27,486 nucleotides of DNA from a virus. The first letter of the stretch is position 1, and the number at the start of each line of letters is the position of its first letter. The DNA lies in IMG/VR virus record IMGVR_UViG_3300032046_000175, positions 1 through 27,486 of that record; one strand, given 5' to 3'. Under the pieces are notes generated by a model. It ran no database searches. It was not told where the DNA came from and worked only from the letters and a program-made list of their open reading frames with translations. Positions 1,464 through 26,180 of this stretch are shown here, one piece after another. The translations under genes and the position numbers were made by a program.

Positions 1464-1742
1464 TTAACTGATGATCCGAGAGACTTCTTCCTTCTCTTCC
1501 TTATCGAATCGCTTGCGGAACTGGCTTTCTTTATAGTAAAGAAATGCCGTTTCCAAGTAGCGGATAGCTTCAAACCCCTCACCCTTGCGGGATTCGGATC
1601 GGACTACCATCATTGCCGCCGTGTGTAGTAAACTACCCATAGCGTGGACTCGTTCATTTAGTTTCTCATCCTCACACTTAATAAATGAAAAGGCTTCAAG
1701 TATTGTTTTGGATGTTTCGTTTTGTTGTGTTGGTTCTGACAT
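1464..1742 (-). CDS. small helical protein resembling the Acb2 anti-CBASS family
   Basis: This 92-residue protein is predicted mostly helical. Its layout, an early EAFSF segment followed by NERVHAMGSLLHTAAMMV and then SRKGEGFEAIRYLETAFLYY, resembles Acb2-type proteins. Those are about 90-residue phage proteins that sequester cyclic nucleotide signals of CBASS and typically read EAF..., an IR helix, SRE, then A-x-x-x-LE-x-A. The likeness is judged from memory of the family, not from an alignment. It is the last gene of the leftward operon, starts 3 nt after the preceding stop codon, and has one of the few clear Shine-Dalgarno sequences here (AAAGGAG, 9 nt before ATG). Terminal operon position suits an accessory counter-defence gene. 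If the resemblance fails, it is simply a hypothetical phage protein. Confidence 0.6.
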   Translation of the reverse strand: MSEPTQQNETSKTILEAFSFIKCEDEKLNERVHAMGSLLHTAAMMVVRSESRKGEGFEAIRYLETAFLYYKESQFRKRFDKEEKEEVSRIIS

Positions 1743-1745
1743 AAA

Positions 1746-2720
1746 TTATTGCTCCTTTAAGAATTTGATCCAGTCACCTTCGGCGGGGTCGAACCATGAC
1801 TTATCGCCAAGGTCGATCAGCAGTTGATGTTCTTGGACTTCTTCTGGCATGGCGCGGACAACCTCCGAGTTGCCGAAGTTGGTGACATTGAGGACAAGGT
1901 AGCGGTGGTGGGTTGGCTTATCATCCTTACCCTGCTCATGCCTGACTAGATTGCGAACCTCGGTAGAGGATAGCTTGTCATTCTTCGCGGCTTCCAGTAG
2001 CTCATCCTGCTTCCTCTTGTTGGTCTTATCATCTCCGAAGTTAGCGTTGCCAATCTCACGATAGACTGTGAACGGAAGCATAGGATCACGCTTGCCAACA
2101 GGGAATGCGCGGCAAGCTCTAGCGTAGCCAGAGACAGTCGAGTAGGACTTCTTGAAGTTAGAGCAGAGTTGGTTGACTACATCGTCATGCCCTCCGTTCT
2201 CTAAGGCACACACCGAGTCTCCGATGATCCATTGTGCGCCCGATTCTAGAGTCAGACCGAAGGCGAATGCCGCCACCCAGTCTTTCATCTCTACCTTACC
2301 TTTGGGAACGCATTGAGTCATCCCTGCGCCAATGTCGAACTTCTGAGTGAAGGAGGATAGTTCCAATCCGTTCTTCACACTCTCCACAAGGGCGAGAGAT
2401 TCGTTGACTGGTTCTGGTGTAGCAGCGATTGGCTCTGGCTTGTAGTCATCTACATTCTGACGATCCTCTTCCATCTCTTTCGCCATGTCCCAGTCAGCAG
2501 ACATACGCTCATACATCTCCAGCATTTCATCTGGCGCATCATCATCCAGATATTCGTTCTTCTGGAGCTTGCTCCATGCCTTCTTGATATGAGCTTCGGT
2601 GATGGTGATCCCCGGCCATTCGTCTTTTACAAACTCCCCCATGTGTCGGAGGTAGGTGGACAGAGGGACTAATACTCCCTCTTGAGTTGGGCTAAACAAT
2701 TCTAGTTCTTTCTTTTTCAT
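1746..2720 (-). CDS. ParB-like / helix-turn-helix DNA-binding protein (tentative)
   Basis: This 324-residue protein has an acidic, probably flexible segment near residues 75-110, followed by a central region with the sequence logic of ParB-type DNA-binding domains. That region has QWIIGDSVCALENG, then FKKSYSTVSGYARACRAFP (a helix-turn-helix candidate near residues 180-200), FTVYREIGNANF, and KQDELLEAAKNDKLSSTEVRNLVR. ParB family members score incoming steps with the same sequence of a Y-x-x-V helix, an R-x-x-hydrophobic stretch, and an L-L-x-A helix ending in s-x-x-E-x-R. The N-terminal ParB nuclease box is not evident. The neighbours are an SSB-like protein and a nuclease, so a role in DNA replication, partition or regulation fits. 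It is one candidate for binding the 14-bp palindromes in this window. No Shine-Dalgarno precedes the ATG. Confidence 0.7.
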   Translation of the reverse strand: MKKKELELFSPTQEGVLVPLSTYLRHMGEFVKDEWPGITITEAHIKKAWSKLQKNEYLDDDAPDEMLEMYERMSADWDMAKEMEEDRQNVDDYKPEPIAATPEPVNESLALVESVKNGLELSSFTQKFDIGAGMTQCVPKGKVEMKDWVAAFAFGLTLESGAQWIIGDSVCALENGGHDDVVNQLCSNFKKSYSTVSGYARACRAFPVGKRDPMLPFTVYREIGNANFGDDKTNKRKQDELLEAAKNDKLSSTEVRNLVRHEQGKDDKPTHHRYLVLNVTNFGNSEVVRAMPEEVQEHQLLIDLGDKSWFDPAEGDWIKFLKEQ

Positions 2721-2772: not shown

Positions 2773-3585
2773 TTAGTATGGGATGTCGTCTACTTCTTCA
2801 GTAGGCGCATCGAGGTTAAGGTCTTCAGCGGCTTTCTCCACGCACTTGGCGAATGGAGTAGTGAACCCCTTCTCCAAGTAGTATTCATAGAGTTTAGTGA
2901 GCGCAGGCTTGCCAATAGCGGCGAGTTTCTTACCCTTCTGCGATCCAGATGGGACGATAGCAGATGCCCAGTCCGATGGGTCTGGCTCAACTACCTTCGG
3001 TTCCTCTACCTTCGGCTCCTCTACCTTGTGCCTAGAGTAGCGGATGCCCTTGCGGTTAGCTTCGATGAAGACCGACGAGACATAGGAGCGAAGGGTTTCT
3101 TCATCCTCCACATCTTTGTAGGTGTGGCGCACCAAGCTATTAATGTAGCGGTGCATCTCTACGATCTCATCAATCGCCTTCTCTGGATTATCGGTTACGA
3201 TACTCTTGGGTGTATGCGCTACACGGGCAGGCTCTTCGCTAGGCTGGTCGAACTCAATCTTCCCAGTAGCTGTGACTTTAATGATGTCACGATCTACCTT
3301 GCCGTTCTTTCCTTCGTAGGACTCATGCTCTAAGGATACTCCGGTCAGCCCATGCTTTCCACGGACTGAGGACAAGGTAACTACATTACCCTTGATAGAT
3401 TGTTCCTGTGTGTTGTTGAAGAACTTGAGTCCGTAGGTATTGCCGTCGATCTCAATGTCTCCACCTTGGATGACAAACTCACCCTTGGGGCCAGTAAATG
3501 TCTTAGGTTCCCACAATTTAGTGACCTTGCCAGTCACTCGTTTGATGATGTCTTTCTGTTCGATTCCGTCTAGTTGGTTACTCAT
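2773..3585 (-). CDS. SSB-like OB-fold single-stranded DNA-binding protein
   Basis: The 270-residue product has a beta-rich N-terminal third (GKVTKLWEPKTF, FVIQGGDIEIDGNTYGLKFF, GNVVTLSSVRGK) consistent with an OB fold. A charged linker follows with a duplicated EEPKV unit near residues 186-200. The extreme C-terminus reads EEVDDIPY, close to the acidic tail ending DDDIPF by which bacterial SSB recruits replication and repair enzymes. It is longer than the usual SSB (about 150-180 residues), so the C-terminal half may hold an additional domain. The start overlaps the stop of the 31-codon ORF upstream in an ATGA arrangement, which explains the missing Shine-Dalgarno. One 14-bp palindrome lies inside the gene. 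An alternative reading is a recombination mediator or another phage ssDNA-binding protein. Confidence 0.7.
   Translation of the reverse strand: MSNQLDGIEQKDIIKRVTGKVTKLWEPKTFTGPKGEFVIQGGDIEIDGNTYGLKFFNNTQEQSIKGNVVTLSSVRGKHGLTGVSLEHESYEGKNGKVDRDIIKVTATGKIEFDQPSEEPARVAHTPKSIVTDNPEKAIDEIVEMHRYINSLVRHTYKDVEDEETLRSYVSSVFIEANRKGIRYSRHKVEEPKVEEPKVVEPDPSDWASAIVPSGSQKGKKLAAIGKPALTKLYEYYLEKGFTTPFAKCVEKAAEDLNLDAPTEEVDDIPY
3189..3202. repeat. 14-bp dispersed palindrome, copy 2
   Basis: TATCGGTTACGATA, inside the SSB-like gene, where it is read as SIVTDN. The frame differs from the copies in the 2411-aa gene. Confidence 0.85.
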
Positions 3586-3690: not shown

Positions 3691-4563
3691 TTAAACCTCA
3701 CTCTTGTTATAGGTTGATTTGTAGTAGTGGCAGAAGGGAGCTACTGAGCAATAACGCTCGCAACGGATATCCCCTCCGGGCCTTGCTTCGATTGAATGGT
3801 TTGCTCCATAAGTAGGAAGTAGGTTCTCTGCTTCTTCTTTTGTTTCGCAAACCTTGGTTGCTCTTTTATTTCCATTCTTCTTGATCGCAAAGGTATCTGG
3901 TTTGGCCCAGCGTTCCTTTGCATCACAGGCAGGGATGGTATCGTCTGGCATTTCAGCCGCCGCTTGGTGCAGTTTGATCCGCTCCGATGCGTAGGCGATG
4001 CACTCCTCGTTATCCCAAAGAGGAATGTCAACAATGTGGACTGCACATTGAGGATACTCTTTGTCAAACTCGGCCTTGCTTGCCTGCCAGTCACGGAGGA
4101 TGGCGACGATCTGACCTTTATTGACTTCATATCCATAGCTTCTCCAGAGCATGGCATTCAGATTGATCTGCGCTTCCCACTCAGACTTGCCGCCGAGGAG
4201 GAAGGAGAACACAGATGTTACCTTGAAGTCAGAGATTACTTTGTTGCCAGTCTCGTAGAGGTCAGTCTGTCCTGTCAGCGTCCAGTCATTGATCGACAAG
4301 TAAAGACGCTTCTCAGTCAACTCTTCCTCTCCTCCAGCTAGCTCAAGAACCTTATGCACCGACTGACCGAGTAATGCCCACACCCTATCGGATGCGTCTT
4401 CCACGATCTCGTTTGAGTAGCGTTTCTTGAGTTGGTTGATTTTTGGTGGCCCGATAAGCGTCGTAACGCTGATGTCTGCTTTCTTCGTTCCTGCCATATA
4501 CCCATCGTGCGCTAATGCCCGATACATGGGTGCTGGTAGGTCGTAGTTATTCGTTATCGTCAT
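3691..4563 (-). CDS. PD-(D/E)XK / Cas4-like nuclease
   Basis: The 290-residue protein shows hallmarks of the RecB-type PD-(D/E)XK exonuclease fold. LLGQSVHKVLEL supplies the early helix with its histidine, LTGQTDLYE and VISDFKVTS give the catalytic D...D-x-K pair, and EAQINLNAMLWRSYG matches the following Q-x-x-x-Y-like helix. A C-terminal cysteine cluster, RCERYCSVAPFC, plus an earlier cysteine near ACDAKERW, could hold an iron-sulfur cluster as in Cas4 and AddB. The role is probably processing of DNA ends during phage replication or recombination. I start at the ATG at 4563 because the longer frame from 4653 overlaps the 47-aa gene almost fully, while 4563 gives a 17-nt overlap and a good N-terminus (MTITNNYDLPAPMY). 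Confidence 0.8.
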   Translation of the reverse strand: MTITNNYDLPAPMYRALAHDGYMAGTKKADISVTTLIGPPKINQLKKRYSNEIVEDASDRVWALLGQSVHKVLELAGGEEELTEKRLYLSINDWTLTGQTDLYETGNKVISDFKVTSVFSFLLGGKSEWEAQINLNAMLWRSYGYEVNKGQIVAILRDWQASKAEFDKEYPQCAVHIVDIPLWDNEECIAYASERIKLHQAAAEMPDDTIPACDAKERWAKPDTFAIKKNGNKRATKVCETKEEAENLLPTYGANHSIEARPGGDIRCERYCSVAPFCHYYKSTYNKSEV

Positions 4564-4690
4564 TTGGTTCGTCCCAGTAGGTAGGTTGGATGCCTTGATC
4601 CATATCACGATGGGCGCACTGGTGAATGTATGCCTCGCGCTTGCCTTCCTCAATTTCTGAGGTCAGATCGTAATCGTCTTCGTCTCTCAT
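4547..4690 (-). CDS. 47-aa acidic protein, coupled to both neighbours
   Basis: ATG at 4690 overlaps the TGA of the 71-aa gene (ATGA), and the TAA at 4549-4547 lies 17 nt inside the nuclease gene. The product is strongly acidic at both ends (MRDEDDYD and EPNDDNE) with HQCAHRDMD in the middle. Its position and exact junctions argue that it is real. A small acidic protein beside a nuclease and an SSB could be a DNA mimic or a structural partner of the nuclease, but no family is recognised. Confidence 0.55.
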   Translation of the reverse strand: MRDEDDYDLTSEIEEGKREAYIHQCAHRDMDQGIQPTYWDEPNDDNE

Positions 4691-4902
4691 TTCTCGAAGC
4701 AGCTAGTAAGAAGTTCCGCTACACCGCGAAGGTGGTCGCCTTGCTTAACTACTGCATTCGCATTCGGAAGATTGCCGAGAAGGAATCGTCCGTCTGATGC
4801 TGCCGATGAAACCAAGCGGAGGTAAATCTCACGCTTAAGATCGTTGTTCTGAACTACTGGTTTTTCTGCTAATTCTTTTTTTACTGTTGGTGTATCTTTC
4901 AT
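4687..4902 (-). CDS. 71-aa hypothetical protein, first gene of the DNA-metabolism operon
   Basis: The product starts with a lysine-rich, probably disordered segment (KDTPTVKKELAEK) followed by a region that may be helical (KREIYLRLVSSAA, DHLRGVAELLTSCF). It is the promoter-proximal gene, 36 nt downstream of the -10 box at 4939-4944. It ends with a 4-nt overlap with the 47-aa gene. No Shine-Dalgarno is visible in the leader (GTCGATAAACACA before ATG). No family is recognised. Confidence 0.6.
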   Translation of the reverse strand: MKDTPTVKKELAEKPVVQNNDLKREIYLRLVSSAASDGRFLLGNLPNANAVVKQGDHLRGVAELLTSCFEK

Positions 4903-5107: not shown

Positions 5108-8100
5108 TCAAGGCTTTTTACGAGACTTGTCAAGATTGTCGAGCGCAGTGTATTTTGATTGGGTTCCAACATTTGATATTGCGATCTTGTAAACTTCGGG
5201 ATCAAACCCATCCAACTCTTCGTAATTTTCCAAAACCAACTTCCGGTTTGACCTTGCGTAATCCTCGTTCACTGTCCTCCACTCTTGATCTGACAATGGA
5301 GTTTCAAACTTCTTGTCAAACCAACTTCTTTGTAGCGGCTCTGGGCCATTTGCATTCTTGAGAGTAATCTTTGCGAGCTTCTGGTCATCACCAGAGCTAA
5401 CCGGAACAAGAGTAATCGGAATGCCAATAGACTTCTTGATCTTCTCTGAAATTTGAACATCACCGATGGGTTGACCAAACGCATTGATTGCTGGCTTCCC
5501 AAACATAGGCCCGATGATTGGAAGGTTATTTAGAATCGCGCCTTCTTTAGTTCTGGTATCTATCGGTTCCGATAAAAAGTCTGATACGTTTTTTGTAGCA
5601 CCAAATCCTAAAACTGGGATGAACGGACTCAAGGAGAATGATGCTTCTTGTGCTATCGCCGCGATAGGATCATCTGGGTATCTACGGAAATCAATCAACC
5701 CTTGCATCAGTCCGGTAGCTGGGCCGCGACGAGCAGCAGTCAGCGCAAACGAGCCAGCAATTTGTCCAAGAGTAGAAAGTAATCCTGCATTCTCTTGAGC
5801 TTTCTTTAGCTCTTCTTTGGTCATCTTCGCGTTGTCTTGGAACTTTCTGATTTCCCAATCATCAATAGCACCCAAGATTTCAATCATTGGTTTCAATGGG
5901 CCTGCGGATTTCGAGTCGATAGCGTATCGCTTATCGCCAATGAAAATCTCAAGCGATCCGGGGTTATGCTTTTTATGCCATTGGTTGTATGCCTCTGGGT
6001 CTTTCGATCTAACTGGGCCAAACCCTGTGGTTACAACTCTGACAGGCTTCTCTTCATCGTCATCGAATGACATTGACCGCAAAAAGAAAAGCGGAAGAAG
6101 GACTGATGTGCCTACTAACTGTTCTACCAAACGCTTCCGTTGTTGGATTGCTGTTCCGTATGTAAGAGGATAATTGCCTTTGAAGATGTGACGATAAAGC
6201 GAAAGTGGAGTATAACCATAAGCAACATTTGCTACTCGCGCTACAATCAAAGGGAATCCCACTAATATTCTTTGGAAGATACGCATTATCTCACCTCGCA
6301 TTCCTTTTTCTGTGCTTGTTGCTTGTGAAAGTTTTTCGTATATTTTAAGAAACGGATAAGACAATGTGCCTTCATCCTTTAATTCAACTTCTCCACTGAA
6401 TTGTTCTTTAAATCTAGTCTTACCAATACGAGACAATGATTCATTTATAGCAGCGTCAATGATCTCAGTAGAGTTAAGGTTCAACCCAGACAAAACATTT
6501 GAAATTTCAGCCTTCATCCGCTCATTGGCGTAAATGATAGCGTCATTCTTACTGATCCCATTTGCCCTCATGTCAGCGATGTCCATCTGTCTCGCTTGAG
6601 CAATCATCCTTAAAGCTCCAAGTTGTTTTTTCTTGGGAATCTTTGCCATGTTCATTGCTGAAATCATGTATAGATTTAAAGAGTTCTGTTGGGTAAGAGA
6701 AAAAGCAGCGTCATCAAGTGCCTTCAATACTCTGGATGTTATTTCTGGATAACCAAAAAGATATTTCTTAATAGCTTGTGCATACTTACCGCTCTTCCAC
6801 AAGTTATTAGCATCATTGTTGAGTCGTTTGAGTTTTCTGTCTTGAGTCTCAAGATAATCAACCAATCTACCGCTTCTGGTTATATCGTTCTTAAAGGAAA
6901 AGGCAGCTTCTCTTGCAGCATTTATCAATGATGATACATAGTTGCTCCATATCTGCATTACCTGCGATGGACTTGTTACATTCCTTGCACTTGCAACTGC
7001 CGAATCCCATGCAGAAAATATAATAGGGTCAATAACCTGCACTGTTGCAACAGTAAATCGTCCGAGTGCCTGTCCAATGTAGAAAGCGGAGAGGGCATCA
7101 CGAACCCTTGTAGGTAGGGAAACTTTATCAATGATCTTCTTGATGCCTTCAAGTGCTACTGCTCGCTCTGCGTCGGTAATAGTGTCATCGTTGATCTTAG
7201 AATCAAATTCATTCAGAGCTTTCAATTGCTCTGCTGTGAATCCTTTCCATCCCATTGCTCGGCCAAACTCAGTAGCAACATTGCTGCCGGGGTTTAAGAC
7301 TTGAGCGCGGATTGCTTCGATCAATGCTGTGAATCCTCGGTTTGATTCTGGCTTGATGCCTTTCAAAAGTTTCTTTGTGATGGATGCAGCGGCTTCTTCT
7401 TGAGCCTTGGCAAATCTTTTCTGAAGCGAAATGTCCATCAGTTTTGCTATTCGTTCAGCTTGTGTTGCAGATAGTCCAGCATTGCGGAGGTAGTCACGCA
7501 TGACTTCGTATCTCCAGTTAGGCTTCTGCTGGTCGGCCAATGGAGTATTCTTGATAGCATTGATTACTCCAGTGAGCGCACCCTTATTAATAGCGGTGTC
7601 GATTGAATCAAGGTTTCTACTAACGGAATCCAACTCAATCTGCCTGCCAACAACATCAGTCAGAGTCAGTGCCGTTGTCTCATCAACTCCGAGTTGTTGG
7701 AGTTCAGCAGCAAATTCCTTCTTCCAGTTCCGCATGATGTCCGCTGCCGCCTTCGGATCAAACATTGGATTAAGATTCAGTTTAAGAGCATTCCTAACTG
7801 CATCCCTAACTGGATTGGCAATCTTATCTGAGGTAGGGAAGTTGGGTGTATCGGATTGAATCTTGGCTAACTTATCAAGTTCGCTTTGCGCTTGGTTGGC
7901 TTTGACTTTTTCTTTGGTCTTAACAACCTTCTTCTCTGTTTGCTTCTCTCGAACCAATGATTCAAGTTGATTGCTCAGATATTCTTTGAGTGCCGCATAG
8001 TCAGCGGGATTCTGACCCTCAAATGTAACGCCAGCAATTTTGTTGATGATAGACGATACGATCCTATCCTGCCTGCTGGTTCCAATCGTAGGCTCCTCGT

Positions 8101-11100
8101 TCATCAATGTAGCAAGTTGAGTAACGCTCGTCTTGCCTTCTTTCAATTCATTGAAGATGAGCCTGCGAAGCATGGATTCGCTTACTGGCATATCTAATTG
8201 TTGAGACATTGCCTTATCCCAAGCAGATTCTATCTCATCGTATTTGAGGTTGATAGCGTCTTGAGCATCTTGATCCTCTGTTTCTGAAAGTTCTTTTTCC
8301 CGCTTGCGATTGATCTCATCCCTAATCTTTTCATCAGCAAGTTTGATTTTGTCGTTAGAAAGTGGCTTCTCCCCAAGGATGCTGGCAACCTGCTCGTAGA
8401 TGTCCATCTTCTTTTCATCTGGAGATAATGGTTTGCCGAGCTTACCTTTTAACCCAAGAGATATAAGCATACTCTTTACGATATTCCCAAGCTCTCGGTT
8501 CTGCGCGGCATCAAGTTCTCCAAGAGGGCCAATCCGTTTTTGTTCAGATGCAAGTGTCTTCCAGAATCCAGTCTCTAGTCCAGAAGCCGCGCCCTCTACA
8601 AGTTTGCCCCGATAGTTCGTGATGCCACCCTTGATTATTTTCTCTACCGCTGCTTTGATTTTGTTCTTGGTCTTCCTATAAGTAAAGGTTCCGCCAAGTC
8701 TTAGCATCGCAGTAATAGCGGCAACCATTGGGTCTTTGACCTCTGGCTTGGATGCTTTATCAATTTGAGTATTGATGTTCTCTACGAGTTCAGTTCCTAC
8801 CTTCTCTCCAACTTGAGTGAGTTCATCAAGGATTGCTTCTTCCTCGTTTACCTTTGTTTCGTTTACAGCAGTAAAAATCTTTTTGATTTTGGCAATCTGA
8901 TCTTCAGTTGGAGTAGTTGTGTTGAAGAACCTTTGTGCTGCCAGTTGAATGAATCCAGCCTGCTCCGCTTCGTTGGCTTGGATGATGTAGCTCTTAAGCC
9001 CTTCAAGCGCACCGAGGGTTCTTCCCACATCTCCTCTTGATTTAACACTTGTTCCAACTACATTCAGTTCATTGTTGAGAAGATAATTCAACATGGAATT
9101 ATCGCCTTGCCCCGCTAACTTGATAGCATACTTGAACAACTCGTTGTTGAGTTTAGTTGCTCCAACTGTTTGCTTGATGGCTTCAAATGCCGTGCGCTCG
9201 CCCTCAGTCGCATCTTCTGCTACATCTACCTCCTGCATTGTTTCGCGGGTAAGCTGGTTGATAGCCTCGGCGTTGCCTGTGGAGTCTGGGTTAGTTACAA
9301 CCAATCTCTCAATCAATCCCCATGCCTTCTTGGTAGCAGACTCGGATGGAGCAGAGTCACCATCGAATACCCTTTGCTTAATGATCTTTATCGTTTCCGA
9401 TAATATACCTTTTGGAGTATCCTTCTCTTGTTTGATGGCAAGTTTTACAATCGTTCCTCTATCAGTATAGCGATCTAACTTACCAGTCTTCCCAACAGAC
9501 AACGCACCAGCTTCACCTTTACCCGGCAAGTAACCCATGAGTTCATTGAACTTCGCTGGCGCACCACTCACTGCTTGCCATACTTCCCCAAGGAACTCTC
9601 TCACAGCATCACCGAATTGCTGGATCATTTGTTTAGCCCAAGCACCAAACTCCATTCCAGCCTCGTAGATGTTCTGTCCTGCTTGGATGAAGTCTTCTTT
9701 GGTAGGGATTAGAACGCCGCCTTTTTCTCCGAGTTTTGGTTTCACAGGCTTCATGTCGTTCTTCTCGACTACCTGCGTCTTGCCTGTGCGCTCGTTCTTT
9801 ACATTGTAATACTGCTCTCCGAACTTCTTGTCGTTAGCACTCTGCGGGATTACTTCTTCGATGGTGTATGTCTGCGGACTCTTGCCTAGCTTGACTCGGT
9901 TGCCTACTGCGATGCCTACTGGCTCTTGGGCGGTAATTAAATTTTCTTTCCAAGAATTATACTCTTCAAACAATTCTTTTTGTTTATCTAATGGTAATTT
10001 ATTAAGTTTTTCAGAAGTTAATTTTTTTTCTTTTAAGAATTTATTTCTGGCCTCATCTGGAGTCATGCCATATTTCTTGGTGAAATTAGCATTGGCTTGC
10101 TCCATTACCGATAGCGGCTTGCTGGGCTTTTGCTCAACTAATGCTGGCTCCGTTATCGTTTCCGATACTGCGGGGGTGGGTTGCTCTTTCTTGTATTTAT
10201 TTACAAGTTCAGCGATAGCGTCTTTGCGCGTTTCCGTTGAAAGCAAACCCAACCACGGCATTCCTTGAATTGATTTACCTTGAGTTACAGCATCTTCTCG
10301 GACTACCGCATCATACCAGTATCCACTTTCTGAATCTTTGAAAATCCTATATTTTTTATCCCCAATCGACACATTGTATTCTCCATCCATAGAGAAATTT
10401 TCTCCACGGGATATTTTAACAGTAGGTTCTGCAATAGGCGCAACCTCTGGCGCGGGAGCTTCTGCTGGTGCAGTTTCGACGGCTTGAGCTTTAGGCTTGA
10501 AACTTCTAATATCAACAATCTCGCTGGTAGATGCTGGTCTATTCGGGCCTTTAGCTGGCTCAACAGTTACGATCCCATCGTAACCTGCGTCGCGCACTGC
10601 TTGCGATAATTCAGCACCTGTCTTCCCTCCATACTGACTTGATAAAACATTCTTCCAGTTCGTTTCGCTTCCGTATTCTCCACCAAAGTTAATAACTAGA
10701 GGATTTTCAAAACGAACAGTTCCTTTCTCAAATCTTTCATCCAGATTCTGAGCGGCACTTGGAGTTGATTCCGAAACATATTTACCGCTTGGCTCAATGT
10801 CTTGTCCAAACTGCGCTCCAAGATTCGGAGCTTTTTCTGTATTTCGTATTGAGAAAAATTCAAATGGCTTACCTGTAGTTGGAGTGGTTACAGCTTCTGC
10901 TGGTGCAGCTTGCTCGGTGACTGGTGCGGGTGCGGTTGGCGCGACCTCTGCGATGGTTGGCGCAACCTCTACTGGTGGCGTGACTACTTGTTCTACTGGT
11001 GCGGCTACGGGCGTTACAGCTTCTGCTACGGGCGCGGCTTGTGCAGGAGGAACTGGTAAGGGTTCAGTTGGGGCAGGTTCTTCTACTATCGCCTTGGCTA

Positions 11101-12343
11101 ACTCGGCTTGCTGACGATTGGCTTCTGTTATCGGTTCCGATAAAAATTCTTCTCCAAGGGACTGCTTTAGTCCTGTAGCTTTCTTTTGCTCCTCGGAGAT
11201 TCGCATCCGCAATTGCTGCGCTTTTGGATCAGTGGGTTCTAAAACATCTAACTCCTGTCTTAAAGAATCAATCGCGTTCTCAGATTGGTTAAGATCATTG
11301 ATAACCTTTTTGGTTGTGGAGTCAGTAGTGGAAAGCGATCTTGCTTCTCTATCTGCGGAACGATTGATGTCTTGTTCAGCTTTCTCTTCCGCTGAAAGAA
11401 ATTCAACTCCCTTCAACCCACCACCAATCACGCCGCCTGCCACCGCACCCATCGTAGCTACTTGCGGGACATTCTGGAAAGTAGGAACATTCTTGCCCTC
11501 TCTTTGTAGGGCGATGTTCTGAGAAATCTGTTCTGCTGCTTCTTGAGTTCCTTCAGTTAGAGCTTCTACACCACCAGCAGCGGCCCCTTGTTTTAAGAAC
11601 TGTCCAAGAGTTTTCTTGGTTACAGCTTGCCCTCTACCAGTAAGAATGCGTGTCGCTATCCTCTCCGCTCCAGTTGATGCGGCTAATGCTCCAATGCCAG
11701 CGTTAGTAAGAATCAAGTCTAAGTTCTTACCACCATAGGATTGAGCTTCAGTAGCGGCACGATCAGCCTCTACCTCATCAAGTCCTTGCTCACGGGAGTA
11801 GTCTCTGACTGATTGGTAGATGTCACCCTTAATCGAGCCTGCCGCTTGAGCAGCACCCATAGTAGCTTGCGCTCCGATTTGAACTGGAATAGATGCGCCT
11901 CCAGTTAATACGCCAACAGCTAAAGATGGAAGCATATACCCTGCCATCTCTGGCCCAAGCGTCTCTGGAGATACAGCTACAGCTTGAAGCCCAGCCAATA
12001 CCTTCGCACCAAGACCTTTTCCTTCTGCTTCTTGGAATAACCTATTAATCTCTTCCTTGTCTTGCTTGGCTTGTGCGCTAGTGAATTGGTCAATGTAGTC
12101 TTCTACTCCAGCAATCTCTTTAGATACTTTATTATTAGCACCAAATAGATCGGTAATCATTCTTGCCGATCCAACTGCTGATTTCGCAAATGCTCCACCA
12201 GCCCTGCCAATTCCAGCTTCTAATTCTTCTGTAGCTGTCTGGAGTTTGTCAGTAAAAGAAGTGCCTACTGGTTCTTTTGTTTCTTCATCAAGAAACGTGA
12301 TTTTTCTTCCCGTTGGTTCTTCATCTAGGAATGTAATAGCCAT
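5108..12343 (-). CDS. giant 2411-aa internal virion / polyvalent ejection protein with ADP-ribosyltransferase-like region
   Basis: One uninterrupted frame of 2411 codons. The N-terminus repeats ITFLDEE twice, then come Ala/Gly-rich hydrophobic segments (about 130-170 and 295-310) of membrane-active type. A Pro/Ala-rich linker (about 420-490) precedes a region at about 494-610 (FEFFSIRNTEKAPNL, ENPLVINFGGEYG, ELSQAVRDAGYDGIVTV) that resembles the ADP-ribosyltransferase domain of phage polyvalent proteins. A small beta domain follows near 806, then over 1000 residues of mostly helical sequence with charged coiled-coil stretches and late hydrophobic segments (about 2020-2045 and 2075-2090). Length, context after two internal-virion-like genes, and architecture fit an ejected channel protein of the T7 gp16 kind that also carries an effector. 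It starts in a TAATG overlap with the upstream gene. Four 14-bp palindromes lie inside it. Enzymatic activity is inferred, not shown. Confidence 0.8.
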   Translation of the reverse strand: MAITFLDEEPTGRKITFLDEETKEPVGTSFTDKLQTATEELEAGIGRAGGAFAKSAVGSARMITDLFGANNKVSKEIAGVEDYIDQFTSAQAKQDKEEINRLFQEAEGKGLGAKVLAGLQAVAVSPETLGPEMAGYMLPSLAVGVLTGGASIPVQIGAQATMGAAQAAGSIKGDIYQSVRDYSREQGLDEVEADRAATEAQSYGGKNLDLILTNAGIGALAASTGAERIATRILTGRGQAVTKKTLGQFLKQGAAAGGVEALTEGTQEAAEQISQNIALQREGKNVPTFQNVPQVATMGAVAGGVIGGGLKGVEFLSAEEKAEQDINRSADREARSLSTTDSTTKKVINDLNQSENAIDSLRQELDVLEPTDPKAQQLRMRISEEQKKATGLKQSLGEEFLSEPITEANRQQAELAKAIVEEPAPTEPLPVPPAQAAPVAEAVTPVAAPVEQVVTPPVEVAPTIAEVAPTAPAPVTEQAAPAEAVTTPTTGKPFEFFSIRNTEKAPNLGAQFGQDIEPSGKYVSESTPSAAQNLDERFEKGTVRFENPLVINFGGEYGSETNWKNVLSSQYGGKTGAELSQAVRDAGYDGIVTVEPAKGPNRPASTSEIVDIRSFKPKAQAVETAPAEAPAPEVAPIAEPTVKISRGENFSMDGEYNVSIGDKKYRIFKDSESGYWYDAVVREDAVTQGKSIQGMPWLGLLSTETRKDAIAELVNKYKKEQPTPAVSETITEPALVEQKPSKPLSVMEQANANFTKKYGMTPDEARNKFLKEKKLTSEKLNKLPLDKQKELFEEYNSWKENLITAQEPVGIAVGNRVKLGKSPQTYTIEEVIPQSANDKKFGEQYYNVKNERTGKTQVVEKNDMKPVKPKLGEKGGVLIPTKEDFIQAGQNIYEAGMEFGAWAKQMIQQFGDAVREFLGEVWQAVSGAPAKFNELMGYLPGKGEAGALSVGKTGKLDRYTDRGTIVKLAIKQEKDTPKGILSETIKIIKQRVFDGDSAPSESATKKAWGLIERLVVTNPDSTGNAEAINQLTRETMQEVDVAEDATEGERTAFEAIKQTVGATKLNNELFKYAIKLAGQGDNSMLNYLLNNELNVVGTSVKSRGDVGRTLGALEGLKSYIIQANEAEQAGFIQLAAQRFFNTTTPTEDQIAKIKKIFTAVNETKVNEEEAILDELTQVGEKVGTELVENINTQIDKASKPEVKDPMVAAITAMLRLGGTFTYRKTKNKIKAAVEKIIKGGITNYRGKLVEGAASGLETGFWKTLASEQKRIGPLGELDAAQNRELGNIVKSMLISLGLKGKLGKPLSPDEKKMDIYEQVASILGEKPLSNDKIKLADEKIRDEINRKREKELSETEDQDAQDAINLKYDEIESAWDKAMSQQLDMPVSESMLRRLIFNELKEGKTSVTQLATLMNEEPTIGTSRQDRIVSSIINKIAGVTFEGQNPADYAALKEYLSNQLESLVREKQTEKKVVKTKEKVKANQAQSELDKLAKIQSDTPNFPTSDKIANPVRDAVRNALKLNLNPMFDPKAAADIMRNWKKEFAAELQQLGVDETTALTLTDVVGRQIELDSVSRNLDSIDTAINKGALTGVINAIKNTPLADQQKPNWRYEVMRDYLRNAGLSATQAERIAKLMDISLQKRFAKAQEEAAASITKKLLKGIKPESNRGFTALIEAIRAQVLNPGSNVATEFGRAMGWKGFTAEQLKALNEFDSKINDDTITDAERAVALEGIKKIIDKVSLPTRVRDALSAFYIGQALGRFTVATVQVIDPIIFSAWDSAVASARNVTSPSQVMQIWSNYVSSLINAAREAAFSFKNDITRSGRLVDYLETQDRKLKRLNNDANNLWKSGKYAQAIKKYLFGYPEITSRVLKALDDAAFSLTQQNSLNLYMISAMNMAKIPKKKQLGALRMIAQARQMDIADMRANGISKNDAIIYANERMKAEISNVLSGLNLNSTEIIDAAINESLSRIGKTRFKEQFSGEVELKDEGTLSYPFLKIYEKLSQATSTEKGMRGEIMRIFQRILVGFPLIVARVANVAYGYTPLSLYRHIFKGNYPLTYGTAIQQRKRLVEQLVGTSVLLPLFFLRSMSFDDDEEKPVRVVTTGFGPVRSKDPEAYNQWHKKHNPGSLEIFIGDKRYAIDSKSAGPLKPMIEILGAIDDWEIRKFQDNAKMTKEELKKAQENAGLLSTLGQIAGSFALTAARRGPATGLMQGLIDFRRYPDDPIAAIAQEASFSLSPFIPVLGFGATKNVSDFLSEPIDTRTKEGAILNNLPIIGPMFGKPAINAFGQPIGDVQISEKIKKSIGIPITLVPVSSGDDQKLAKITLKNANGPEPLQRSWFDKKFETPLSDQEWRTVNEDYARSNRKLVLENYEELDGFDPEVYKIAISNVGTQSKYTALDNLDKSRKKP
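5561..5574. repeat. 14-bp dispersed palindrome, copy 4
   Basis: TATCGGTTCCGATA, near the 3' end of the 2411-aa gene, read as LSEPI (about residue 2255). Confidence 0.85.
9389..9402. repeat. 14-bp dispersed palindrome, copy 5
   Basis: TATCGTTTCCGATA, inside the 2411-aa gene, read as LSETI (about residue 983). Confidence 0.85.
10154..10167. repeat. 14-bp dispersed palindrome, copy 6
   Basis: TATCGTTTCCGATA, inside the 2411-aa gene, read as VSETI (about residue 727). Confidence 0.85.
11129..11142. repeat. 14-bp dispersed palindrome, copy 7
   Basis: TATCGGTTCCGATA, inside the 2411-aa gene just before the Pro/Ala-rich linker, read as LSEPI (about residue 402). Confidence 0.85.
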
Positions 12344-22526: not shown

Positions 22527-23522
<996 letters not shown>

Positions 23523-24602: not shown

Positions 24603-26180
24603 TTATCCTACGATGATATAAATTGTATTTGCGTTAGGTGTGACGATTAAATCGTATCCAGCTTGCGTGATTTGAACGATATTAGAAAGTTGAGTCGCAC
24701 CCGTAAGCCCAGTAGTGTCTGATAGAACAATATTTGCTGGCGTTACCCCAGTTGCTCCCGTCGAGCCTTGTGTTCCTACTCCAGTAGCCCCTGTAGCTCC
24801 TGTCGCTCCGCTTGCGCCTATTCCAGTAGCCCCAGTTGCACCAGCGTTACCTTGAATTCCTGTCGCACCTGTCGATCCTGTAGCCCCAGTTGCACCAGCA
24901 ACACCCGTGGCTCCAGTCGAGCCTGTATCGCCAATAACGCCCGTAGCTCCTGTAGAGCCAGTCGCCCCGTCATTTCCAGCAACGCCCGTTGCACCCGTAG
25001 CCCCGATTCCCGTGGCTCCTGTCGCTCCTTCTAAACCAGTCGCGCCAGTCGCACCAGTCGCGCCACCCGATCCCGCAACGCCTGTCGCGCCAGTTGCGCC
25101 TACTCCGGTTGCTCCTGTCGCTCCAGTGATACCTGCCGCGAATACAATAAACGCAAGGTCATGGTTGTTCGCAAAATTAGTTGTGCCTGTCCCAGCCGAG
25201 GTAACTAATGTAACTGGATACTCAACATATCCAGTTTGCGGAACTGGGGGTGCAGAAACAGTCCATTTTTGATAGTTATTGCTATTGGTTGCGTCTTGCA
25301 GAATGAGCGTGTCCCCTTGCTTTATCAGTCCCAGAAACACATCGACATCGACATTGTTTTTGTCAATGTGCGAGACATTGATTTGCGTAGCAGATACTTG
25401 AGTCGCATTGTTCCAGATTAGATGCGTTGAAGTTGGGTCGCCAGTTGTGATCGTCGTTTTTGCTTTATAGTCGAAAAATGATGCCGATTGTCCAGCATTT
25501 CCTTGTGGGCCAGTGGCTCCCGTGGCTCCGATACCAGTCGCTCCAGTCGCGCCTTCCAGACCTGTTGCACCTGTCGAGCCGTCTATCCCTGCTATGCCAG
25601 TTGCTCCCGTAGCCCCTCTAACCCCAGTCAATCCCGTAGCACCAGTCGCGCCCGTGGCTCCGAGATCGCCAGTAGCTCCTGTGGCTCCGATATCACCTTG
25701 GACTCCAGTTGCTCCTGTCGAACCAGTTGCTCCATTTGTTCCAGAAATTCCTGTCGCGCCAGTTGAACCAGTCGCTCCATCAAGTCCAGCTATCCCTGTT
25801 GCGCCAGTGGAACCAGTTGATCCATTAATGCCAGAAATTCCAGTTGCCCCTGTTGATCCTGTCGCGCCTGTGGCTCCATCTGTTCCAGAAAGACCAGTGG
25901 CTCCAGTGCTTCCTGTGGCTCCATTAATTCCAGATACACCCGTGGCTCCAGTAGCTCCAGTAGCTCCAACGCCTGTTGCGCCAGTCGCGCCTGTGCTTCC
26001 ATTTATACCAGCAATGCCAGTAGCACCATCAGAACCCGTTGCTCCTGTGTTTCCAGTCGCTCCCGTAGCACCCGTTGGGCCTCCAGCTGGGCCTGTGGCC
26101 CCAGTTGCCCCAATTGCTGCGCTGGATTGACTTCCAATGAAGTCAAGTTTTCCAGTAAATGGGTTAAATGTGAGTGCCAT
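24603..26180 (-). CDS. 525-aa collagen-like fiber protein
   Basis: The N-terminus ([18 protein letters not shown]) is of the type found at the start of phage collagen-like fibers and probably docks to the tail. Two blocks of Gly-x-y triplets, mostly Gly-Ala-Thr (residues about 23-225 and 348-477), flank a globular beta domain (about 230-345: [36 protein letters not shown]). A C-terminal module [12 protein letters not shown]...[10 protein letters not shown] (about 490-525) also ends the partial gene at 27293-27486, so it is a mobile or duplicated tip or trimerisation unit. AAAGGAA lies about 12 nt before the ATG. Confidence 0.85.
24750..25137 (-). repeat. collagen-like triplet repeat block 2 (525-aa gene)
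   Basis: Gly-Ala-Thr-rich triplet coding repeats between the globular domain and the C-terminal tip module. Confidence 0.8.
25505..26115 (-). repeat. collagen-like triplet repeat block 1 (525-aa gene)
   Basis: Gly-Ala-Thr-rich triplet coding repeats between the N-terminal docking segment and the globular domain. Units GINGSTG, GTDGATG and GLDGATG recur, suggesting growth by duplication. Confidence 0.8.

Follow-up and report, generated by a model that had tools for sequence, protein, structure and literature searches.

The minus-strand open reading frame at positions 1464–1742 of the window, i.e. the whole 27,486-base virus record analysed here, encodes a 92-aa, predicted all-helical protein, a candidate divergent Acb2-type protein on the basis of the ORF, the structural models and the family alignment. 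Taken as a whole, the best explanation is that of a divergent member of the Acb2/Tad1 helical-hairpin group that binds a signal and acts against host defence (probability of about 0.5). Within the group, this very divergent member would be closer to the short Acb2-like proteins, known from phages that infect Mycobacterium, Gordonia, Paenibacillus and other hosts, than to the T4 type. It would be translated from a DNA-metabolism operon and oligomerize via its last helix. A cyclic nucleotide or a similar signal would most likely be bound via F20 (at the place of T4 Y8), R/K48 and R52, and the bound signal would be kept from the host defence effector. We infer all four elements of this explanation, namely common descent with Acb2, oligomerization, ligand binding and an anti-defence role. 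Common descent is quite probable, judging from the sequence comparisons and the models, and a function as nucleotide sponge is an evenly balanced proposition. The initial annotation had given the position and size of this ORF, which are exact (the minus strand was absent from it), and had read the protein as Acb2-like. The fold layout and a profile signal from the short-type Acb2s speak for that reading, while the match to PF24729 and several residues of T4 Acb2 are missing.

Gene order and conservation

The operon lies on the minus strand, in the order p71, exonuclease, p270, p324 and the 92-aa gene. The first gene of the conserved block, p71 (4687–4902), encodes a 71-aa protein and is followed by the exonuclease (3691–4653; phrog_2139 match, E = 1.9e-51), whose ORF as listed begins at a TTG, the first ATG being at 4563. 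Next are p270 (2773–3585), a 270-aa protein with an acidic DDIPY tail and no family match, and p324 (1746–2720), a 324-aa protein encoded directly or closely upstream of the 92-aa gene in relatives. The C-terminus of p270 reads D-x-I-P-Y/W in all 16 aligned sequences, the window p270 included. This tail resembles those of single-strand binding proteins, and p270 is presumably SSB-like. The TAA stop of p324 (1748–1746) and the ATG of the 92-aa gene (1742–1740) are separated by 3 bases.

As claimed in the initial annotation, the 92-aa gene is the terminal one: beyond it lies a convergent helicase (C-terminal part, PF00271; plus strand, 113–883), with a terminator-like hairpin in between, 3' of the 92-aa gene (minus strand, 1319–1352). 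The 14-pair stem of this hairpin (6-nt loop, T-rich tail) is located 111 nt beyond the stop of the 92-aa gene and is followed by TATTTTTTGC; the scan that detected it found one site against 1.5 expected by chance and alone is little proof. The hairpin is part of a stretch of about 580 bases between the convergent operons (884–1463) that holds no convincing gene. An Rfam scan of the window yielded no RNA family at the gathering score. Elsewhere, the window holds an open frame of 2411 aa (5108–12343) as well as two proteins that are collagen-like and rich in G-A-T-G repeats (22527–23522 and 24603–26180).

The initial annotation had also noted a strong Shine-Dalgarno proper to this gene. The site is indeed present, as AGGAG at 1752–1756 (minus strand), within the final codons of p324, and it is the sole 5-base match to AGGAGG among 23 starts in the window (the exonuclease start being uncounted). 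A match of at least 4 bases precedes five of these 23 starts, and most starts have none. Among 59 related loci, a site of 4 or more bases was found for 20 of the 28 copies located directly after p324 vs. 2 of the 31 copies displaced by an insert, and in the 31 insert loci the first ATG after p324 has such a site in 24 cases. The Shine-Dalgarno is thus a property of the p324 end or junction, not of the 92-aa gene as such. Consequently, the high, sponge-like level of expression proposed from this site loses its evidence.

The slot between p324 and the 92-aa gene holds 143–1134 bp in the 31 insert loci out of 59 (L241–L300), and positions 1743–1745 of the window are the empty form of this cargo slot. 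Small ORFs are present in the inserts read (18 of 31), some of them recurrent across several contigs. Nine of the cargo-slot ORFs were compared with Pfam, none scoring above cut-off.

Relatives of the 92-aa protein at 73–95% identity are encoded in 47 IMG/VR viral loci (39 in the first search). In 46 of them the exonuclease, p270 and p324 are found upstream in that order, the remaining locus (L089) being a contig end, and a convergent helicase lies downstream in 44. From a scan with p324, 56 loci were obtained, ten of them with a p324 identity of only 52–61%, and a member of the 92-aa family was present on the same strand in all 56. The median dN/dS of the 92-aa gene is 0.105 (47 sequences, 1081 pairs, 74 pairs with saturated dS excluded), close to that of its neighbours, also calculated without saturated pairs (0.094 for p324, 0.133 for p270 and 0.083 for the exonuclease). 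The 92-aa gene is a core gene of the loci examined, under purifying selection.

For an accessory anti-defence gene, one would less readily expect presence in every locus and such slow evolution. Both observations favour the main rival explanation, in which the protein is a core accessory of the DNA metabolism of the clade, in replication or recombination, e.g. a partner of the exonuclease, p270 or p324, and its resemblance to Acb2 is one of shape and helix-heptad pattern. We consider this unlikely, in view of the profile and fold matches to named Acb2 proteins described below.

Beyond these viral loci, tblastn against isolate phages gave no match to the 92-aa protein, p324 or p270, and two pattern-based scans of bacterial genome contigs gave no relative of the 92-aa protein. 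The exonuclease is common to Pelagibacter phages Baldr and vir555 (41–43%), and no clear counterpart of the 92-aa gene was seen by eye in the annotated neighbourhoods of their exonucleases. Matches of a divergent member to Bacillus SPbeta were attributed to chance, being antisense to annotated genes, yorR among them, in the two records checked.

Profile similarity to short-type Acb2 proteins

We searched the family with stock profiles, among them PF24729 (curated cut-off, 27 bits), a search against the Acb2 family having been named by the initial annotation as a check. None of the 33 close-clade members, window protein included, nor any of the six divergent members matched it at E ≤ 10, so that this check came out negative for all 39. 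The controls behaved well (T4 Vs.4, 71.5 bits; Rhizobium phage, 58.7; Vibrio D60, 70.8), and PF24729 exceeded its cut-off in 21 of 22 Acb2-bearing test records, LilMcDreamy being below. The record of the window and 13 related ones contained no PF24729 match. Cyanophage S-2L has one of 68.5 bits (35220–35405; L097:121–306), mostly in an unannotated stretch before and into a tail assembly gene.

The solved Acb2 chains gave no sequence match to the 92-aa family, and nothing convincing emerged from Pfam, PHROGs, NCBIfam or PDB sequences. Four recurring weak matches were taken as chance. Their E-values were at best 0.034 for phrog_37732, 0.0075 for Srp19 (window protein, 15.6 of 131 bits) and 0.0012 for a methyltransferase model, and 0.0027 for DUF1101, which stays below its cut-off. 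Under the one name searched, the family is absent from the available parts of PMC12657218, PMC12043709, PMC10097602, PMC11722364, PMC11953737, PMC13348362 and PMC10793342.

With a Neff of 1.4, the close clade varies too little to make a useful profile. Synteny yielded relatives at 33–46% identity and hence a better one, the family profile F, built from 43 members. For comparison, we assembled 80 short Acb2 ORFs, of which seven were dropped; nine phage rows were added and identical rows merged, giving 76. In hhalign, F matched these 76 short Acb2s over 72 columns with P = 0.0018–0.0022 (Prob 13–15%). None of 100 column shuffles scored as high, the best one coming near (21.0 vs. 21.5). With p26-type and T4-type Acb2s (3 of 32 rows of the latter dropped beforehand) there was no match, 18 and 26 of 100 shuffles, respectively, scoring as high or higher. 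For reference, comparisons among the three Acb2 sets gave Prob of 38, 63 and 98%. The close clade alone (A1 vs. A2, Prob 0.3) and the comparison of A5 with A2 (P = 0.02) are each too weak by themselves.

In the reverse direction, the 76-sequence Acb2 profile gave the window protein 1.3 bits and four members with FSFH 7.5–7.8 bits, against 5.9 for the best unrelated ORF out of 1967, with one shuffled sequence reaching 9.0. In a mixed pool, the family profile scored the 76 short Acb2s at a median of 3.1 and a maximum of 12.7 bits, and the decoys at a maximum of 2.8 (284 scored of 430 decoy ORFs, which are mechanical ORFs, many of them not real genes). At least 5 bits were reached by 23 of the 76 real short Acb2s vs. 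1 of 76 reversed sequences and 9 of 1520 shuffles (maximum 8.7). Half-swapped short Acb2s reached this score just as often (23/76). The similarity therefore rests on local segments and need not be co-linear over the full length. When built from the 33 close rows only, the profile brought 3 of the 76 to at least 5 bits, and a shuffle reached 12.5 bits. From these sequence comparisons, we conclude that the similarity between the family and the short Acb2s exceeds composition but is local.

We then searched ten phage genomes (235–740 ORFs each, 4407 in total) with the family profile, filters disabled. The labelled Acb2 gene ranked 1, 1, 1, 1, 3, 3, 4, 6, 91 and 192; as Acb2 rows are mutually related, these ranks, like the counts above, are not independent tests. 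The E-values at rank 1 were 0.19 for Anthony, 0.0066 for MinecraftSteve (the best single value), 0.07 for LilMcDreamy and 2.2 for Ley, which is marginal. In Gordonia phage Gray, the labelled gene was fourth, and the three PF24729 places of this genome ranked 1, 3 and 4 of 740 ORFs (best E = 0.51). With these three places counted, a PF24729-type gene came first in five of the ten genomes and among the top six in eight. Because the two unlabelled competitors in Gray sit on PF24729 places, the probability given to the best explanation was raised from 0.45 to 0.5, and common ancestry with Acb2, already likely, became more so. The selection of PF24729-type genes out of whole phage genomes also counts against a mere likeness of shape, as the core accessory explanation supposes.

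The Acb2 genes of Xandras and of Vibrio D60 (p26 type) are those ranked only 192nd and 91st. With filters on, alignment A6 found no match in 22 of 23 Acb2-bearing records, and its single match (E = 0.011) falls on the Acb2 gene of that record. The close-clade profile alone reached rank 1 in one of the ten genomes. The PF24729-type places of Gray (MK279853.1) are located at 5727–5888 (45.6 bits), 8845–9003 (20.4 bits) and 11871–12041 (69 bits), two of the three being without W-A-N. The record of L169 carries a second pair of PF24729-type places.

Predicted fold and residues at Acb2 positions

Two AlphaFold2 monomer models were obtained, one from a shallower alignment (helices 6–19, 26–48 and 53–79; pLDDT 74) and one from a deeper alignment (6–17, 26–48 and 53–75; pLDDT 70). 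Both predict, with medium confidence, a short N-terminal helix followed by two long antiparallel helices, without any strand, so that the helical layout proposed at the outset recurs in each. According to the available text of PMC12043709, the Acb2 protomer consists of a short N-terminal helix and two long antiparallel helices, and the predicted layout of the 92-aa protein agrees with it. The initial annotation had named two outcomes that together would refute Acb2: the absence of a profile match, which was observed with the stock profile, and a predicted fold unlike Acb2, which was not observed.

Foldseek searches of BFVD with the deeper model returned proteins named as Acb2/Tad1 hairpins at ranks 3, 7, 9 and 10 (probabilities of 0.72, 0.80, 0.60 and 0.47), four such names in the top ten that argue against the core accessory explanation. 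Rank 1 was a 75-aa LilMcDreamy protein (probability 1.00, TM 0.61/0.73). Three annotated genes of this phage share that length, and gp72 is the only one of them that the Acb2 profile hits (35 bits); by elimination, the match is gp72. Annotated as hypothetical, gp72 (L418:24757–24984) is itself Acb2-like, with a PF24729 score of 20.9 of the 27 bits and no W-A-N. All BFVD E-values were at least 0.1, none being ≤ 0.001, and with the shallower model no named Acb2 was among the best 50 of 105 matches. PDB fold searches with both models, VIA-align being among the tools, gave no Acb2 chain among the matches listed, an absence that does not exclude the Acb2 family. In VIA-align, the best PDB match of the deeper model was an unrelated helical domain (Z = 8.2), and generic helical matches fill the list, as would be expected if the protein were a core accessory resembling Acb2 by shape.

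The residues of the 92-aa protein (F18-S-F20; S51-R52..E55-G56..A59-I60..L63-E64..A66..Y69-Y70) were assigned to Acb2 positions in a 43-row family alignment, on which these assignments depend. In T4 Acb2, cGAMP is stacked by Y8 and F82 and contacted by Y8, H11, K23 and R79, hexamerization involves L29, A66, A73 and A77, and A77I clashes with the hexamer interface (available text of PMC10097602). At the place of Y8, F20 is aromatic in 41 of the 42 rows with a residue (F 40, Y 1, V 1). The places of A66 and A73 are occupied by A59 (A, C or S in 43/43) and A66 (A 40, G 2, V 1). In addition, F18 (42/43) aligns with the F of the short Acb2s (74/76), E55 (43/43) with the Glu of their R-E-K motif (75/76) and E64 (33/43) with their E (75/76). 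The conserved basic residues of the family are R/K48 (43/43) and R52 (R in 42 of 43 rows, K in one).

At the K23 place, which is Arg in all 76 short Acb2s, the basic residue is lost in the family (A 38, G 4, S 1 of 43). The A77 place is Tyr70 in all 43 rows. Neither the R79 place (E72; E, N, S, Q, I, V or A) nor the F82 place (F75; F 33, E 4, T 4, S 2) is conserved. Because of these changes, a canonical T4-like hexamer pocket is unlikely. The short Acb2s also lack R79 and F82, whose absence thus rules out the T4 pocket only. That the 92-aa protein would be a canonical Acb2, its pocket and hexamer interface being those of T4, is very improbable: size, helical layout, the F-x-F and the two alanine positions fit, but neither PF24729 nor the T4-type profile matches, K23 and A77 are replaced and R79 and F82 are not conserved.

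On this sequence evidence, a changed interface and a changed ligand are possible. The protein might also have kept the Acb2 descent and fold, lost the nucleotide pocket and become a structural or regulatory partner in replication, which would account for profile and fold similarity alongside the loss of K23/Arg, R79 and F82 and the Tyr at A77. We regard this as improbable, since the aromatic F20 and the conserved R/K48 and R52 would suit a retained ligand site. Furthermore, E30, S37, G56 and Y70 are invariant and correspond to no binding residue of Acb2, a point in favour of the core accessory explanation.

Comparison with known systems

The preferred reading, a divergent hairpin member with a retained signal-binding site, can be carried further. 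Tentatively, the family may be a new branch of Acb2/Tad1-hairpin sponges that has become a fixed core gene of one uncultured phage clade. Its oligomer interface would be rebuilt around Tyr in place of Ala77, its ligand site would lack K23/Arg, and its signal would probably differ from those of known Acb2 proteins. If the protein is a sponge, the Acb2 group reaches beyond what stock profiles detect and into uncultured phages, and the gene, universal in the examined loci, is not an accessory one; the range of bound signals may then be wider. Profiles built from synteny can recover such distant relatives. If the protein has another function, it shows where Acb2 calls made from shape and size reach their limit.

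Among known proteins, Tad1 is also a sponge and has an N-terminal beta-sheet (available text of PMC12043709). It has in common the hairpin domain for which the Pfam family is named, whereas neither model of the window protein contains a strand. T4 Vs.4/Acb2 (7uq2; 88 aa) and the p26-type protein of Pseudomonas phage PaP2 (8h2j) are similar in size and also consist of a hairpin plus an N-terminal segment. Likeness to the T4 type extends to the aromatic residue at Y8, the alanines at A66 and A73 and, in 33 of 43 family rows, the Phe at F82. However, there is no profile match with the T4 and p26 types, K23, R79 and A77 differ, and the solved structures were not retrieved by sequence.

The short-type Acb2s (PF24729; e.g. 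Xandras gp101 and MinecraftSteve gp52) are of similar size, with 57–91 aa in the 76 used. They and the family share the F-x-[YFH]-H start of the hairpin, a long helix, a turn with a conserved Glu and the A..L-E-x-A pattern in the last helix. The short-type genes have ThyX as a neighbour in two phages and SSB close by in another, the Acb2 gene of Xandras lying two genes after SSB. Unlike them, the family is without the W-A-N-A motif, the invariant Arg of V-R and the Arg of R-E-K, has the invariant Tyr at the A77 place and falls below Pfam detection.

The divergent PF24729-type genes, i.e. LilMcDreamy gp72 and those of Gray at 5685–5894 and 8695–9015, are top-ranked by the family profile and, like the family, lack W-A-N. 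In gp72, E-Q-A-V-A-I-K-C-L-E corresponds to E-G-F-E-A-I-R-Y-L-E, and in Gray L-E-T-A-C-M-Y corresponds to L-E-T-A-F-L-Y and L-E-L-A-Y-L-L to L-E-L-A-F in relatives. These genes are still found by PF24729 (20.4–45.6 bits), whereas the window protein is not found at all.
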